Shown in pieces: positions 1 to 9,657 of a stretch of DNA of 12,610 nt. Made by a program: the position numbers and the translations under genes. The notes beneath the pieces were generated by a model. That model was given only the letters and a program-made list of their open reading frames with translations. It did no database searches and was not told the DNA's origin. The DNA is from an uncultured Caryophanales bacterium (GTDB lineage Bacteria > Bacillota_I > Bacilli_A > Acholeplasmatales > Anaeroplasmataceae), in contig CAMOUK010000036.1 of NCBI GenBank assembly GCA_946626535.1, positions 1 to 12,610 on the forward strand, written 5' to 3'. Position 1 is the stretch's first letter; each line of letters opens with the position of its first letter.

Positions 1-53
1 AACCATCGATCAGGCAGTTGCAGTGCCGTGCCTTACCACTTGGCTACAGGGCC
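1..53 (-). tRNA. tRNA-Cys (GCA anticodon), 5' part, cut by window edge
   Basis: On the minus strand the sequence from base 53 reads as a tRNA: 7-nt acceptor strand GGCCCTG, TA, D-arm GCC...GGC with the AGTGGTAA loop, anticodon arm CGGCA-CTGCAAC-TGCCT with anticodon GCA, a 4-nt variable loop, then T-stem strand GATGG and the first TT of the T loop at the window edge. The anticodon and the cysteine-type D-arm both indicate tRNA-Cys. The outermost anticodon-stem pair (position 27-43) is a C-U mismatch; the other four pairs are intact. The 3' half and any further tRNAs in the cluster lie outside the window. Confidence 0.93.
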
Positions 54-192: not shown

Positions 193-2310
193 ATGATGAA
201 CGATAACTACAATCAAGAAAACGAAGATGTATTAGAAAAATATGGTCGCGATATAGTTAAACTTGCTAAAGAAGGCAAAATCGATCCAGTAATTGGTAGA
301 GATGAAGAAATTAGACGTATAATCAAAATCCTATCTAGAAAAACTAAAAACAACCCAGTACTAATAGGTGAACCAGGTGTTGGTAAAACAGCTATTATCG
401 AAGGCTTAGCTAGACGTATTGTTGCTAATGATGTACCAACATCATTAAAGAATAAAACAATATTTGAACTAGATATGGGTGCTTTAGTTGCTGGAGCTAA
501 ATATCGAGGAGAATTTGAGGAAAGATTAAAAGCCGTCTTAAATAAGGTAAAAGAATCAGATGGAAACATCATCATGTTTATCGATGAAATCCATCTAATT
601 GTCGGTGCTGGTAAATCAGATGGTGCTCTTGATGCTTCTAACATGCTAAAGCCTATGCTTGCTAGAGGTGAACTACACTGTATAGGTGCGACAACTCTAA
701 AGGAATACAGAGAATATATCGAAAAGGATTCAGCCTTAGAAAGACGTTTCCAAAAGGTCTTAGTTTCTGAGCCTACAGTCGAAGATACTATTTCTATCTT
801 AAGAGGTATAAAGGAGCGCTTTGAGCTACATCATGGTGTTACAATCCTAGATAACGCTATTGTCGCTGCTGCTACCTTATCTAATAGATATATCACTGAT
901 AGATTCCTACCAGATAAGGCAATCGATTTAATCGATGAGGCTTGTGCTTCTTGCAGAATGGAAATAGATTCAAAGCCTGCTGAGCTTGATGATATGGATA
1001 GAAAGATTGCTCAATTAAAAATTGAACAAATGGCCTTAAAAAAGGAATCTGATCCTACTTCTATTAAAAGATTAGGGGTTATTGAAAATGAGCTTAAGGA
1101 AGCTCAAACTAAAGCTAAAGCTCTAACTGATAAATGGACAAAAGAAAAAAATGAAATTCAAAATTATAAATCTGTTAAAAAGGATTTAGAGGATAAAAAG
1201 TTCCAGCTAGAAAAAGCCTTTAACGAAGGTAATTATAAACTAGCATCTGAGCTACAATATTCTAAGATTCCTGAATTAGAAGCAAAAATTAAAGAATATC
1301 AAGAAATGTCTAAAGAAGATCATCTTCTTTCTGAATCTGTATCTGAAGAAGATATCGCTACAGTTGTAGCTAAATGGACAAATATTCCTATTTCAAAGCT
1401 AATGCAAGGCGAAAGAGAAAAAATCTTAAATCTTGCTGATACCTTAAAAAATAGAGTTATAGGTCAAGATGAGGCTGTTGAATTAATATCTGATGCTATC
1501 ATAAGACAAAGAGCTGGTATCAAAGATGAAAATAAGCCAATTGGTTCATTTATGTTCTTAGGCCCTACAGGCGTTGGTAAAACTGAACTTGCTAAAGCCT
1601 TAGCCGATGCGCTATTTGATAGCGAATCACATATCGTAAGAATCGATATGTCTGAATATATGGAGTCTCATAGTGTGGCTAAGCTAATAGGTGCGCCTCC
1701 AGGATATGTTGGCTACGATGAGGGCGGTCAGTTAACTGAAAAGGTTAGACGTAATCCTTATTCTATCATTTTATTCGATGAGATTGAAAAGGCCCATCAT
1801 GATGTATTTAATATCTTACTTCAAATACTTGATGATGGTAGACTATCAGATTCTCAAGGTAGAACTGTAGATTTCAAAAATACAATCATTATTATGACAT
1901 CTAATTTAGGTAGTGAGCTTCTTCTTTCTAATTCTAAGGATGCAAAGCTTCAGGTTGAAAAGCTATTAAAACAAAACTTCAAGCCAGAATTTTTAAATAG
2001 AATTGATGAAATCATAACATTTAACCCATTAAATAAGGATGTTCAATTAAAGATTGTATCTAAGCTTCTTCACAATCTTGATTTAAGATTAATAGCTCAA
2101 GGAATTAATATTACTTATACTGATTCCTTAAAAAAATATATTCTTGATCAATCATTTGATGAGGAATATGGTGCAAGACCAGTTAAAAGATATATTCAAA
2201 AATATATCGAAACATTTATCGCAACTAAAATTATTAAAGGTGAAATCAAGCCTGATGTCCCTTATGTTTTAGATGCCTTAAATAATGAGATAAGATTACT
2301 CGTAAAATAA
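193..2310 (+). CDS. clpB: ClpB-type disaggregase lacking the N-terminal domain
   Basis: Cytosolic AAA+ chaperone that, in the known family, extracts proteins from aggregates together with DnaK. The protein is 705 residues from ATG 193. NBD1 has Walker A GEPGVGKT (about 59-66), Walker B with FIDE (131-132), pore-loop Tyr in GAKYRGEF and arginine finger RRFQ. A long coiled-coil M domain spans about 255-375, ClpB length rather than the short ClpC linker. NBD2 has Walker A GPTGVGKT (about 457-464), Walker B LFDEIEK, pore loop [11 protein letters not shown] and sensor-2 motif GARP. No IGF/IGL-type ClpP-docking loop is seen, arguing against ClpC or ClpE. The usual ~140-residue N domain is absent; the protein starts about 20 residues before [11 protein letters not shown], as in mycoplasmal ClpB. 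The in-frame TTG at 172 lies upstream of the AGGAG site (178-182), so ATG 193 or 196 is the start. CIRCE implies heat-shock control. Confidence 0.95.
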
Positions 2311-2325
2311 TTTTTAAAAATTTTC

Positions 2326-2353
2326 TTGACATATCAAAATAAAAGTGTATAAT
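2326..2353 (+). promoter_or_regulatory. Promoter of the small-ORF unit
   Basis: Perfect TTGACA (2326-2331), a 16-nt spacer and perfect TATAAT (2348-2353), beginning 16 bases after the clpB stop. The predicted transcription start is G2359 or G2360. No CIRCE-like repeat overlaps it, so it appears independent of heat-shock control. No GC-containing terminator separates it from clpB, so read-through from clpB is also possible. Confidence 0.8.
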
Positions 2354-2358
2354 AAAAT

Positions 2359-2418
2359 GGTTTTGAAAAATAACTCCTTCAATCCGTCAAGATAAAAGAC
2401 GTTAAAACCTGGAAGGAG
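2359..2418 (+). promoter_or_regulatory. Structured leader that can sequester the small ORF's ribosome site
   Basis: Three complementary pairs can be read directly. CTCCTTC (2374-2380) pairs perfectly over 7 bp with GAAGGAG (2412-2418), which is the Shine-Dalgarno. CGTC (2385-2388) pairs with GACG (2398-2401) as an inner hairpin with a 9-nt loop. GGTTTT (2359-2364), at the predicted transcript 5' end, pairs with AAAACC (2404-2409), which would tie the fold into a pseudoknot. It resembles no riboswitch class I can name. It could be a ligand switch, a thermosensor or simple translational repression. The pairings are seen; the function is inferred. Confidence 0.5.
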
Positions 2419-2427
2419 ATCATATAC

Positions 2428-2502
2428 ATGTTAAAGAAATTTTTATATACAATTGCAGAAATATTTGCAGCATGTGGATTAGATATCAATAAGCTTGACT
2501 AA
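2428..2502 (+). CDS. 24-residue amphipathic small protein or leader peptide
   Basis: ATG 2428 follows GGAAGGAG (2411-2418) at a 9-nt spacing, an excellent ribosome site, and the ORF ends at TAA 2500. The peptide starts MLKKFLYTIA, has a single Cys at residue 16 and ends INKLD. Residues 2-16 would form an amphipathic helix (Leu2, Phe5, Leu6, Ile9, Ile12 and Phe13 on one side; lysines at the N-terminus). Net charge is about zero. I recognise no family. Options are a membrane-associated microprotein, a type I toxin-like peptide, an AgrD-like pheromone precursor (weak: no clear processing motif or agrB nearby), or a leader peptide whose translation affects the overlapping terminator. Its own promoter, ribosome site and terminator favour real expression. 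Confidence 0.55.
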   Translation: MLKKFLYTIAEIFAACGLDINKLD

Positions 2503-2517
2503 TCCACTATTTTTTTT
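2474..2517 (+). terminator. Intrinsic terminator overlapping the small ORF's 3' end
   Basis: GTGGATTAG (2474-2482) pairs perfectly with CTAATCCAC (2499-2507). Across an ATA bulge, TCAA (2486-2489) pairs further with TTGA (2495-2498), leaving a 5-nt loop. A run of eight T follows (2510-2517). The left arm lies in codons 16-19 of the small ORF, and the right arm begins at the last base of codon 24 and contains the stop codon. A ribosome finishing the ORF would therefore block hairpin formation. Confidence 0.85.
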
Positions 2518-2518
2518 A

Positions 2519-2547
2519 TTTAAAAAACATTTAAAATTTGGTAAAAT
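2519..2547 (+). promoter_or_regulatory. Possible weak promoter for the HD-GYP gene
   Basis: TTTAAA (2519-2524), a 17-nt spacer and TAAAAT (2542-2547). Both boxes are imperfect and the region is so AT-rich that chance matches are common. If it is not used, the HD-GYP gene depends on read-through of the terminator just upstream. Confidence 0.3.
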
Positions 2548-2600
2548 ATTTCTAGTGAGTTTATATTGCAATTAATCATTTTTTAGAGGTGTTATATAAA

Positions 2601-4031
2601 ATGAGAGAGCCTAGATGCAACCATATAGTTAAATCTAAAAATTTATGGGAAATAGCTATCGAATTCATTCAAAAAATAGACGATAAGCTAATGGATATAA
2701 ATTTAAAACAAGCCTATATTACATATAAAATTTGTAAGATTAGAAATGTACCATATGAGACAGTTTCTAAATTAGTATTTTTATCTTGTTTCAACAATGT
2801 AGGAAAATACTATGCGGCAGAAAATAAATCAGACCCGGATATTGAAACATATCTATTTTTAAAATATTTCTCACCAGTAAAAAATTATGCCGATGTCCTA
2901 TTATGCGATACCCAAAATCATAAAATAACTATTCCTCACCAAGAGGCAATACTATTTAAAATTTCAAATGACTACACAAAGCTTCTTCTTAATCTTAATA
3001 ACACTACAGAAGCTTTAAACGCTCTACTTGAGAATAAGGATAATTATGATTCAAAATCTATTAGAGCCTTAGAAAGACTAATTAGAAAAACTGATATAAT
3101 ATATGAATTTAATTCAGTTCATTACAAAACTATAATATATAGATATATATCTAAAACAATCTTTAATCCTCAAGATAAAAATAAATTCATTTCAATGCTA
3201 TCATCACTATTTGAAATGTATAGTGCTCAAACACTATATCATTCAAAGCTAACAGCGATAATAGCCTATATGCTTGCTAAAAAGCATCATATCCATTTTA
3301 ATAGAGCTAAAAGAATCTATATGGCTGGTCTATGCCACGACCTTGGTAAGGTATGTATTCCTCTTAGAATACTAGAAAAGCCTGATAAGCTTACAGATAG
3401 AGAATACACTCAGATGAAAAAGCATGTAACCTTCACCAAAGAAATTCTAAATTCAAAGATGGATTATGAAATAATCGAAATGGCCTATCGTCACCACGAA
3501 AAGCTAGATGGTACAGGCTATCCAAATAAGCTTAAAGGTGATTTTATTACTATAGACCAAAGAATATTACAGGTTGCTGATATCATAAGTGCCTTAATAG
3601 CTAAAAGAAGCTACAAGGAAGCCTGGGATATTACAAAGACTATTTCTATATTAGAGGAAATGGCAAATGCTGGTAAAATAGATAAAAATGTGGTTGAATG
3701 CTTCAAGAAAAATCAAAAGAAAATTTTAAAGACTGCCTTCTGCTTCACTGAACAAGCTGATAAGGTTTATGAAAAGATTAATAGAGAAAGAGAAATTCTA
3801 AACATAAAGAAGAGTCAGTCTTCTACTATTGATACTGAAGAGCCTAAGAAGGTTGTAAGAGTTACAAAAAGAAAGGTAGCTTTAAAGCCTACTGAAGAGC
3901 CTACTAAAAATGAAAATGTAGTAGAAAAGCCTATAGAAGTTAAAACTGAAGAAATCAAGCCTGAAGAAATTAAACCAGAACAAAATACTATAGAAAATAA
4001 TCAACAAGAAAGCGAAAGCTCTGACAATTAA
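2601..4031 (+). CDS. HD-GYP cyclic-di-GMP phosphodiesterase with a degenerate N-terminal HD copy
   Basis: Predicted cytosolic protein of 476 residues from ATG 2601, with ribosome site AGAGGTG (2585-2591); the in-frame GTG at 2589 lies inside that site and is rejected. Residues about 210-375 form an HD-GYP domain: HDLGK (HD at 246-247), His275, HH 298-299, DGTGYP (303-308) and Asp327 in VADIISAL. This is a full set of metal ligands plus the GYP signature, so hydrolysis of c-di-GMP is likely. Residues about 30-165 look like an older, decayed copy: AYITYKICK, then FNNVGK where HDLGK is expected, then ILFKISNDYTKLL in the place of ILQVADIISAL. The last 70 residues are low-complexity, Lys/Glu/Pro-rich, with an IKPEE/IKPEQ repeat, probably disordered. 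No membrane segment is seen. It is preceded by the small-ORF unit. Confidence 0.85.
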   Translation: MREPRCNHIVKSKNLWEIAIEFIQKIDDKLMDINLKQAYITYKICKIRNVPYETVSKLVFLSCFNNVGKYYAAENKSDPDIETYLFLKYFSPVKNYADVLLCDTQNHKITIPHQEAILFKISNDYTKLLLNLNNTTEALNALLENKDNYDSKSIRALERLIRKTDIIYEFNSVHYKTIIYRYISKTIFNPQDKNKFISMLSSLFEMYSAQTLYHSKLTAIIAYMLAKKHHIHFNRAKRIYMAGLCHDLGKVCIPLRILEKPDKLTDREYTQMKKHVTFTKEILNSKMDYEIIEMAYRHHEKLDGTGYPNKLKGDFITIDQRILQVADIISALIAKRSYKEAWDITKTISILEEMANAGKIDKNVVECFKKNQKKILKTAFCFTEQADKVYEKINREREILNIKKSQSSTIDTEEPKKVVRVTKRKVALKPTEEPTKNENVVEKPIEVKTEEIKPEEIKPEQNTIENNQQESESSDN

Positions 4032-6990: not shown

Positions 6991-9657
6991 TTACTTAACA
7001 TATTTTTTAATAAAATCCTCAATTGGTAGTGGCTTATCATATAGATAGCCTTGAATATAATCACAGCCTATCTCCTTTAGGTAATCTCTTAAGCCTACAT
7101 CTTCTACGCCTTCACATAAAACCTTCATGTTTAAACTCTTAACAAGCTCTGTAATATATTTTAAAATAATTATTTCTTTTTTATTATTAACATTATTACA
7201 TAATTCCTTATCAATCTTAATAATATCAAAATTTAAATGTGATAATGTAGTGAAATTTGAATAGCCAGCTCCAAAATCATCCATAGCTACCAAATAGCCC
7301 TTTTCATGTAATAAATCTATAAATGAAGAAATACTTTCGGTATTTGCCGTATACATTCTTTCTGTAATCTCAAATTCAATTAAGGAAGACTTTACTCCAT
7401 ATCTAGTTCTAATACGCTCAAGCTCATCTAAATAATAGTTAAAATCAGGGACATATCTAGATACATTTACAGATATAGGAACAATTATCTTCTTTTCTTC
7501 TTCAAGCTTTTTAATTAGCTTACATACCTGTTCAAATACGTAATAATCTAAATTAACTATAAAGCCAGCTTCCTCAAAAATAGGAATAAAGACATCTGGA
7601 TAAATCATCTCATTATTTTTATAATTCCATCTAGATAAAGCCTCCGCTCCAGCAACACTGCCTGTCTTTATATCAATTTTAGGCTGTAGATAAACTAAGA
7701 ATTCATAATTTGCTAAAGCTTCATACATATGCATTTGAAGCTCCATCTTTCTATTTTCAAGCTCAAATACTTCCCTATCAAAGTAAACAACAGATTCATT
7801 AACCTTTTTTCTTTTTCTAGTCAATAGAGCCTGATCTTCAATAACTGAAATATCATCGCCTCTATTACCTAAAGATGCACCACAGGTTAAAATAATATAT
7901 TTACTCCAAATATCATGTTCTTTAATTTTAATCATTAATTCATTAAAAATAGTTATAGCTGTATCATCAGTCTTTGGAACAAATATGGCAAATCTTGCAT
8001 CACCAGAACGACAGAATATATAATCATTATTTTTTCTTTCTGCTTCTAATAATTCAACCATATATATTAAAAGCTCATCAGTTCTCTTACTTCCTAAAAT
8101 ATTAGTTAAGCTTCTAAATTCATGAAGGCTCAAATCTAAAATAGTATAGCTTTCAATCTGATTAACCTTTATATAATCATTAACCTCAACAAGCCACTTA
8201 TTATAATTATAAGCTCCTGTAAGCTTATCAAAATATAAGTCTTCTAATTGTTTTCTTGTATTATATTCCTTATTAAATTTAATAGATAAAATTCTAGCAA
8301 TAAGCATTAGTGTTGAAACATCTGTTTGTTGCCAAAATCTATTAACTGATGTCATTTCAAAGTTGATAATACCAAATGGCTTACCTTCACCTCTAAGCTC
8401 AAAGGCTACAATAGCTGATACATTATTTCTAACTAAGCTATTATAACAAGCTAGATTAGAGTTAGCTGAAACCTGATTTAGCTTAACAATATTAGCCTCA
8501 CCTAAGGCCTCTCTCCAGGTATCCATATCGCCATTTTCAACATCGATACTTTTTTTAGTACTTCTTGGATTATACCAAATCTTAGTATCAACTATCTTAT
8601 CAGTTTCAGGATCACTTTCGATAAGAAAAACTCTATCGAGAGTAAAATAATTACCTATAAGTGGCAATATTTCATCTACTGATACATTAAGGCTTTGATT
8701 CTTATTTAATATTTCTAATATCATAGTTATTAAAGAAATATTAGTATTAGAATTATAAGCCTTATCTATTTTATTTTTAGAGACATCAATCTCATCATTT
8801 TCACTTACAGGACCACAATTTTCCTCTAAATAAATAACGAAGCAGTCTCTAGCTTTTCTTTTTCCTCTATACAAGGCCTTATCAGCCTTTCTAAATAATA
8901 ACTCATAGGTACTTCCATCATTTGGAAATCTTGAACAACCAATAGTAACTGTATATTTTACATTTCTAGCACTACTTATACTAGCCTTAGCGATAGATTT
9001 CTTTAATCTCTTACAAATATCATATACAGTATCATATGAATCATCAGCCTTATAGCAAATTAAAAATTCATCTCCACCTATTCTACTAACGTATCCATCA
9101 CTACCTAAGAAATCCTTAATTGCTGATACTATTTCAATTAAAACAATATCACCAAACATATGACCATACATATCGTTATATTCTTTAAAATTATCGACAT
9201 CTACAATCATCAAAACAAAGCTTTCATTTCTAGCAATAGCTTCCTTAACTACGCCCATTAAATAGCCTCTAGAATGAGTTTTTGTAAGCTCATCAAAGCT
9301 ATTTTCAGTATTAGTATCAGGTGATGTTAAAATAAGTATTTCATCTTCATTAATTCTAACACCGCTATATAAGATTCTTAGTGTTTTATTATTTAAAGTA
9401 TTATATGAAACAGTAATAGTAAATGATTCATTTCCAGGATTTAAGTTCTTTAAAAATCTTAAGGTCTTAGCCTCAAAATCTAAAAGTAGCCCATAAACCT
9501 TAGCAAACTCAACCGCAAAGCTATGATAATCTAGCTCATCAGCTATTTTCTTATTACCATAATAAGCGCTAAAAACCTTACTTAATTTCGTATTAACTAT
9601 GAAAAAAAACTTACCATCATGTTTAATGACTCTTTCAAATAATTCATTTTTTTCCAT
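6991..9657 (-). CDS. Cyclic-di-GMP hybrid enzyme: PAS-like, GGDEF, GAF, degenerate GGDEF, EAL
   Basis: Predicted cytosolic protein of 888 residues with both c-di-GMP-making and -breaking modules. Residues 1-115 are a sensory, possibly PAS-like, region. Residues 122-275 are a GGDEF domain with DELTKTHSR, DVDNFKEYND and intact GGDEF (194-198); no Arg of an RxxD inhibitory site is seen at the expected spot. Residues about 300-465 look like GAF (FGIINFE...). Residues 476-625 are a second GGDEF fold whose signature reads GDARF (552-556), so inactive. Residues about 640-885 are EAL with EAL (672-674), NVS, EITE, DDFGAGYS (Asp793/794), KIDK, EGVED and Gln869, all the usual metal and catalytic residues. 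No transmembrane segment is visible. The start has AGGAGGT five bases upstream. It follows the lipid kinase gene by 13 bases and is last in the operon. Net direction of catalysis cannot be told from sequence. Confidence 0.92.
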   Translation of the reverse strand: MEKNELFERVIKHDGKFFFIVNTKLSKVFSAYYGNKKIADELDYHSFAVEFAKVYGLLLDFEAKTLRFLKNLNPGNESFTITVSYNTLNNKTLRILYSGVRINEDEILILTSPDTNTENSFDELTKTHSRGYLMGVVKEAIARNESFVLMIVDVDNFKEYNDMYGHMFGDIVLIEIVSAIKDFLGSDGYVSRIGGDEFLICYKADDSYDTVYDICKRLKKSIAKASISSARNVKYTVTIGCSRFPNDGSTYELLFRKADKALYRGKRKARDCFVIYLEENCGPVSENDEIDVSKNKIDKAYNSNTNISLITMILEILNKNQSLNVSVDEILPLIGNYFTLDRVFLIESDPETDKIVDTKIWYNPRSTKKSIDVENGDMDTWREALGEANIVKLNQVSANSNLACYNSLVRNNVSAIVAFELRGEGKPFGIINFEMTSVNRFWQQTDVSTLMLIARILSIKFNKEYNTRKQLEDLYFDKLTGAYNYNKWLVEVNDYIKVNQIESYTILDLSLHEFRSLTNILGSKRTDELLIYMVELLEAERKNNDYIFCRSGDARFAIFVPKTDDTAITIFNELMIKIKEHDIWSKYIILTCGASLGNRGDDISVIEDQALLTRKRKKVNESVVYFDREVFELENRKMELQMHMYEALANYEFLVYLQPKIDIKTGSVAGAEALSRWNYKNNEMIYPDVFIPIFEEAGFIVNLDYYVFEQVCKLIKKLEEEKKIIVPISVNVSRYVPDFNYYLDELERIRTRYGVKSSLIEFEITERMYTANTESISSFIDLLHEKGYLVAMDDFGAGYSNFTTLSHLNFDIIKIDKELCNNVNNKKEIIILKYITELVKSLNMKVLCEGVEDVGLRDYLKEIGCDYIQGYLYDKPLPIEDFIKKYVK

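Follow-up and report, generated by a model that had tools for sequence, protein, structure and literature searches.

Within the window, the whole stretch of 12,610 nucleotides analysed here (G+C content 30%), a compact transcription unit is flanked by a gene encoding a ClpB/ClpC-type ATPase (172-2310) and an HD-domain gene (2601-4031, Pfam HD_5), the HHExxDGxGYP string of which we take to be the HD-GYP signature. A sequence-only reading had placed just such a unit, of about 160 nt, between clpB and an HD-GYP gene, and had suggested that it might encode a microprotein or a small RNA, or act as a regulatory leader. Its features are:

2326-2353, plus strand: sigma-70-type promoter, TTGACA-16-TATAAT, matching the consensus at 12/12 positions
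2374-2380, plus strand: 5' arm of helix P1, CTCCTTC, an anti-Shine-Dalgarno sequence (fold; covariation across five members)
2385-2401, plus strand: P2 hairpin, CGTC-AAGATAAAA-GACG, the first half of the conserved core (fold, alignment, covariance models)
2402-2411, plus strand: 3' half of the conserved core, single-stranded, TTAAAACCTG (alignment of members)
2412-2418, plus strand: 3' arm of P1, GAAGGAG, the Shine-Dalgarno sequence of the ORF (fold, opening-cost computation)
2428-2502, plus strand: ORF MLKKFLYTIAEIFAACGLDINKLD, 24 codons plus TAA (homologues; purifying selection)
2474-2517, plus strand: intrinsic terminator, its stem overlapping the last codons and stop of the ORF (fold against shuffles)

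The promoter is as perfect as had been claimed, with TTGACA at 2326-2331, TATAAT at 2348-2353 and a spacer of 16 nt. It is one of two full 12/12 matches in the window, and such sites are rare, since any full match occurred in just 33 of 1000 dinucleotide shuffles. The terminator, a stem (2474-2482 paired with 2499-2507) with an inner hairpin, followed by eight T residues, likewise proved strong (-12.9 kcal/mol, z = -4.5, none of 200 shuffles equally stable). It is absent from a simple terminator scan that admits loops of 3-8 only. The predicted transcript runs from ~2360 to ~2516, and its ~157 nt agree with the proposed size; its fold as a whole is more stable than shuffles (z = -2.75, 3/200 equally stable).

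The sole relative returned for the HD-domain gene (64% identity in the best segment) is found in a sheep-rumen MAG labelled Acholeplasmatales (genome G001), and the Clp gene is 88-89% identical to those of G001 and of two other genomes, G013 and G021. The HD-domain gene (2601-4031) and a GGDEF-EAL gene (6991-9657) flank a ZnuA/ABC/FUR metal-uptake cluster, and the two are likely a cyclic-di-GMP set in an Acholeplasma-like genome. A partial tRNA gene (1-53, minus strand) is truncated by the window edge.

Related units in bacteria and phages

A tblastn search (E 0.5) with the 24-residue peptide in 55 genomes of the family of G001 gave matches in 14, two of them free-standing ORFs and 12 located inside frames of 331-358 codons, which are discussed below. 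The free-standing homologues, MIKKFIRIIADIFVSFGLDLNSLD in G021 (E 1.8e-4) and MIKKFLKRMAYIFVSMGLDLNKLD in G013 (E 2.4e-4), are both 24 residues long, with 58 and 63% identity to the window peptide. Although they were found from the peptide, both have the 24-nt core GTCAAGATAAAAGACGTTAAAACC in their leaders with no mismatches, and TTGACA-17-TAATAT (10/12) lies upstream of each unit. Promoter, ORF and stems, the features whose conservation in close relatives the earlier reading had wished to see checked, are all present in G013 and G021. The G013 terminator has a weaker, mismatched stem in the full fold and does not appear in the terminator scan.

In G013 and G021 the unit is downstream of recQ, whereas in the window it follows clpB, and the genes behind clpB in these two genomes differ from those in the window. 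No core was found in G001 at three mismatches, and weak DNA, model and profile matches there were not units on reading, in a genome that, like G013 and G021, may be incomplete. The cassette thus appears to be sporadic and to change place.

Its rarity extends to larger samples. At up to three mismatches, the core occurs in 2/160 genomes of the order (G013 and G021) and in 0/395 genomes sampled from the class; the three phylum genomes (of 392) that match the pattern all have three mismatches and, by eye, lack a paired Shine-Dalgarno sequence with a short ORF. Covariance model R2 (E 0.5) matched 54 of the 160 order genomes, with G013 and G021 accepted; ten weaker matches (alignments, with the flanks of nine) and one of G001 were inspected and rejected, and the others were rejected by score. 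Model R3 (E 0.001) returned only G013, the centre of the sample, from the 395 class genomes; in these large model runs, just the top few candidates per genome were scored. With no copy found in 158 of the order's 160 genomes, the unit appears to be dispensable.

In virus contigs, pattern scans picked out 39 distinct stretches, each inspected by eye around the match, and a paired Shine-Dalgarno sequence plus ORF was seen in only two. Phage A (IMGVR_UViG_3300021400_000048, 223 kb) is the sole virus contig with the exact core; phage B (IMGVR_UViG_3300031994_000003, 333 kb) was found via the first 16 core bases, which occur in 20 stretches, those of the two phages being taken as real. Both contigs were found from the RNA core alone, and a short ORF of related sequence directly follows each leader (MLRRVKSFLNTVAELFIDYNLNLNEIK in phage A, MKKFLYKMADFFVMVYMSSIN in phage B). 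This recurrence of leader and ORF in bacteria and in two virus contigs indicates that the unit in the window is a real gene.

Several other candidates were not retained. In L033:840-890 (IMGVR_UViG_3300032007_004072), the AAGATAAAA hairpin and then TTAAAACC occur directly behind a promoter, with no short ORF; the likeness is attributed to chance because the opening bases, ACAGGTTAAGA, are seen again at a second promoter of the same phage. Annotated plasmids and phages gave short, chance-like DNA matches and two weak phage peptide matches (E 6 and 7). None of the 159 virus stretches returned by the peptide profile was confirmed, and the search must be regarded as insensitive, since phage A was not returned. 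CRISPR-repeat mimicry, raised by the hairpin plus AAAAC, was set aside because G013 and G021 show single copies. Three core strings and four peptide strings were absent from the open-access literature searched, a scope outside which most subscription papers fall.

In both phages, the unit lies inside a tRNA array and in the same direction as the tRNAs. The phage A array comprises 26 tRNAs, with one further tRNA apart, and the unit has tRNA-His and tRNA-Thr as its neighbours; in phage B, which has 28 tRNAs and a tmRNA there, it is flanked by tRNA-Asp and tRNA-Glu. The tmRNA (L106:9097-9466) has the predicted tag ANKLIANAMINQVVFA, and one tRNA of that array, with anticodon ATT, is called tRNA-Asn. 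The ~200 bases from tRNA-Asp to the leader (L106:5834-6030) have no Rfam match at E 5, and one may wonder whether they are another RNA.

An ORF of phage B is a terminase large subunit according to PHROGs (2.2e-59), although Pfam names nothing there; attention had been drawn to it by phrog_2, which was discarded as a poor test of virality, having also matched in 13/14 control genomes. For phage A, a viral nature is indicated by its inclusion in IMG/VR and by an RtcB, a helicase and a tRNA content of phage type; the parts examined gave neither a clear capsid match nor a clear terminase match, and the sole portal-family match there falls within a nudix-like stretch. Sample 3300021400 is described as a sheep rumen metagenome (PMC6118326). 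Two of the 120 listed relatives (of 7471) of the phage A tryptophanyl-tRNA synthetase carry an organism name, Anaeroplasma (62%) and 'Bacilli bacterium' (59%); this is consistent with a rumen host of Mollicutes type without proving it. A search for sister phages by YqeY gave, among the matches listed, phages A and B only. In phage A (L038, L040 and L037:11081-11155), reading TGA as sense lengthens the longest stop-free frame from 568 to 3496 and from 497 to 1215 codons in two of four 20-kb stretches, the other two changing little, and one of the tRNAs has the anticodon UCA. TGA recoding has been reported in jumbo phages (PMC13037316).

These neighbourhoods bear on whether the unit could be an attenuator, with the leader peptide and terminator governing the HD-GYP gene downstream. 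In the window it does precede the HD-domain gene on the same strand; however, the sole returned relative of that gene has no upstream unit, and none was found in its genome. Behind the unit, the next gene seen in G013 is a convergent tRNA-Lys, and each phage has a different tRNA there, the G021 contig ending at that point, so that the neighbours differ in all four settings where one is visible. Given the terminator that closes the unit and the convergent gene in G013, there is little to favour a leader that serves a gene downstream, and attenuation seems extremely improbable. A Trp-codon attenuator in particular can be set aside, as no Trp codon occurs in any of the five peptides.

The leader RNA and its Shine-Dalgarno sequence

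In a search of 100,985 bases with covariance model R1, for which only G021 and G013 were used, the window reached 54.9 bits (E 6e-11), as against 37.7 bits (E 9.9e-7) for phage A; phage B, left out of R2, scored 57 bits with that model. In all five members, the Shine-Dalgarno sequence is paired inside P1, a helix of 7-9 bp enclosing the 4-bp hairpin P2 and the core GTCAAGATAAAAGACG[T/C]TAAAACCT, which is invariant save for one base. Over 25 bases, the window, G013, G021 and phage A do not differ in the core; phage B has a single change, T to C, and TTAAAACCT is invariant elsewhere. The structured leader of the sequence-only reading agrees with a predicted fold common to five members. As to its strong ribosome site, GAAGGAG is indeed present, and the Shine-Dalgarno-like arm of P1 ends 9 nt ahead of the ATG in every member, but the site is predicted to be paired with CTCCTTC at 2374-2380.

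P1 is formed in 93% of cells across the five members, with changes on both sides in 6/9 pairs; in P2, one pair is changed on one side only, and no pair on both. For the whole structure, 95.4% of cells are paired, compared with 80.5% in shuffles and 33-65% with slid partners. On four of five measures, none of 500 shuffles equalled the structure, and on the fifth 4/500 did, in an alignment that was made to the model; the signal from the first four members only is weaker, with 5 to 159 of 500 shuffles equal. Folded individually, four leaders have the same P1 and P2, and the Shine-Dalgarno sequence is paired in each of the five; the lowest-energy fold of phage A has the same P2 and a shifted register of P1 that includes the final bases of the core. 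The computed cost of opening the Shine-Dalgarno sequence is 3.8-7.9 kcal/mol, lowest (3.8) in the window, and its burial exceeds that in shuffles in four leaders (p 0.003-0.03), with p 0.20 for phage A.

The covarying structure therefore takes in the ribosome-binding site, as in a cis-regulatory RNA with a translational expression platform. P1 drifts in sequence while its pairing is kept, and the loop and strand that it encloses are fixed, which is expected of a binding site coupled to such a platform. Translational riboswitches and leaders that sequester the ribosome-binding site have been described, likewise with a covarying helix that holds the Shine-Dalgarno sequence and surrounds a conserved core (PMC7266159). 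The present leader differs from these in having no Rfam match, in preceding an ORF of 21-27 residues and not an enzyme or transporter gene, and in the occurrence of its core in phages as well. No Rfam family covers the unit, only tRNA and tmRNA passing the cut-off in the Rfam scans; the best sub-threshold match over it is the Avashort thermometer (E 0.36, 17.6 against 88 bits). An RNA thermometer is unlikely because the computed opening is nearly independent of temperature, the mean unpaired probability of the Shine-Dalgarno sequence in the five leaders rising by at most 0.03 from 25 to 45 C. A preQ1-I riboswitch, in which a pseudoknot joins the hairpin loop and the 3' tail, was rejected, with no conserved complementary loop-tail pairing on inspection and no Rfam match at E 10.

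A buried Shine-Dalgarno sequence also recalls type I toxin genes, in which it would silence a small toxic helical peptide while an antisense RNA served as antitoxin. The AapA peptide of the Helicobacter AapA/IsoA system is very small, like the microprotein here. Its mRNA is structured, and sequestration of the Shine-Dalgarno sequence has been reported for one AapA mRNA, as predicted for the present leader (PMC6733600), the usual form of such systems being a small hydrophobic peptide and an antisense RNA (PMC6563280); the sporadic, locus-hopping distribution of the unit would also suit a toxin. Here, however, no antisense RNA locus was found, the Shine-Dalgarno sequence is paired by one upstream arm, and the core is invariant. 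There is no antisense promoter across the unit in G013 or G021; the window has one 9/12 minus-strand site inside the ORF (2489 to 2460), where promoter-like sites are near chance (12 found against 9.4 expected, sd 2.9). An antisense partner would leave unexplained a near-invariant unpaired core beside a drifting P1, and a toxin gene would be odd inside the tRNA arrays of large phages. We consider a type I toxin unlikely.

It may instead be that the RNA is itself the product, a small RNA that binds a target via the invariant core, with the ORF incidental. The core, with 25 invariant bases in four members, is much more conserved than the ORF, and a discrete molecule could arise in all five settings, from promoters in the bacteria and flanking tRNAs in the phages. 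Against this stand the protein-level selection among the bacterial members, described below, and the constant 9-nt distance of the Shine-Dalgarno-like arm from the ATG. No second core match at up to three mismatches was found on either strand in G013 or G021, and hence no locus that could encode a partner RNA complementary to the whole core; a reversed control pattern matched once in G021, which is the level of chance. A small RNA with an incidental ORF is accordingly given a slim chance.

The encoded peptide

The 24-codon ORF at 2428-2502 gained support as a gene from its homologues in two bacterial genomes and from its pattern of substitution. The nucleotide differences, with third-position changes in brackets, are 28 (14) between the window and G021, 27 (15) between the window and G013, and 15 (7) between G021 and G013. 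When the same number of changes was placed randomly, 57-82% of simulations gained a stop, and the rest were compared. No stop-free simulation conserved the peptide equally well for the window and either bacterial relative, and for G021 and G013, the share was 0.5% when scored by BLOSUM and 3.3% when residues changed were counted. The corresponding values are 0.7 and 9.8% for the window and phage A, and 7.7 and 28% for the window and phage B over 14 codons; the phage B peptide lacks the C-terminal GLDLN. As judged by these simulations, the bacterial peptides show purifying selection, and those of the phages are weakly conserved. The sequence-only reading had held that a conserved ORF with synonymous bias would support a peptide, and covarying stems with a decayed ORF an RNA element; both halves proved positive, except that the ORF is not decayed.

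Across the members, the ORF is 21-27 residues long. The N-terminal stretch of the peptide is basic, and it probably forms an amphipathic helix, although the helical moment (best value above shuffles, p 0.01-0.13) is suggestive only.

The 12 tblastn matches inside longer frames all appear by eye to be tryptophanyl-tRNA synthetase, at one helix; the identity of the G032 enzyme was checked against solved structures. When a profile of the three bacterial peptides was searched against the 55 genomes, the best outside match was this helix, LKKNIKELAALFLACGLDLNK, before 'FIQSEVP', in 4/55 genomes (E 1.2e-5 in G032; 1.1e-4, 1.2e-4 and 4.3e-4 in three more), a stronger match than that of the single peptide (E 0.005). 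Against the G032 enzyme, the bacterial peptides beat 300/300 shuffles, that of phage A 97% and that of phage B 54%, in a test whose target was picked as the best match and whose peptides are mutually related. No peptide is significant against phage A's own synthetase (10-52% of shuffles equal), and the profile has no synthetase match at E 10 in G013 or G021, the helix of the G021 enzyme reading LRKNIRSLVALYLACGLDPKK. The helix thus resembles the bacterial peptides, with a match that is weak or absent in the phage peptides, and unlike the synthetase the microprotein has just 24 residues and no catalytic motif. Descent from a fragment, mimicry and chance are all conceivable, and the resemblance is an unproven lead.

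Proposed control of translation and possible exchange with phages

Taken together, the five members, known from sequence alone, make it probable that the unit is a free-standing microprotein gene whose translation is controlled in cis by a structured RNA. Among the options of the sequence-only reading, the best fit is thus a microprotein gene combined with its own regulatory leader. Genes of fewer than 30 codons are often missed by gene callers, and to our knowledge few are known with a dedicated regulatory RNA; the unit looks like a previously undescribed RNA-controlled microprotein, a protein of 24 residues paired with a regulatory RNA whose core spans chromosomes and the tRNA arrays of giant phages.

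Since opening P1 costs energy, the transcript would be off by default, with the Shine-Dalgarno sequence buried. A putative factor, which could be a protein, a small molecule or an RNA, would recognise both the loop of P2, AAGATAAAA, and the YTAAAACCT strand, and would shift P1. We tentatively favour a factor that opens P1 and so switches translation on over one that stabilises P1, which seems rather unlikely. The near identity of the core in chromosomes and phage tRNA arrays points to a shared, strongly constrained binder, and its 24 bases offer a handle with which to find further members and isolate the factor. In the phages, tRNA end processing would free an RNA of 200-360 nt from the array.

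The cassette is perhaps exchanged between rumen Mollicutes and phages, and the peptide would act on a partner or membrane common to the host and to phage infection. More speculatively, and with little probability, it may belong to a phage-host conflict over translation, in which an infection cue, sensed by the conserved RNA that rumen Mollicutes and their giant phages both carry, frees a microprotein that mimics the synthetase helix or otherwise engages the machinery of tRNA charging; the host would have captured its copy from a phage, or the reverse. A phage peptide of similar size, T4 Stp (26 residues), acts on a host restriction/tRNA-nuclease complex, and its N-terminal part is likewise better conserved than the remainder (PMC3014915). 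No such leader is reported for Stp in the available part of that source (PMC3014915), and the microprotein described here, unlike Stp, has bacterial copies.
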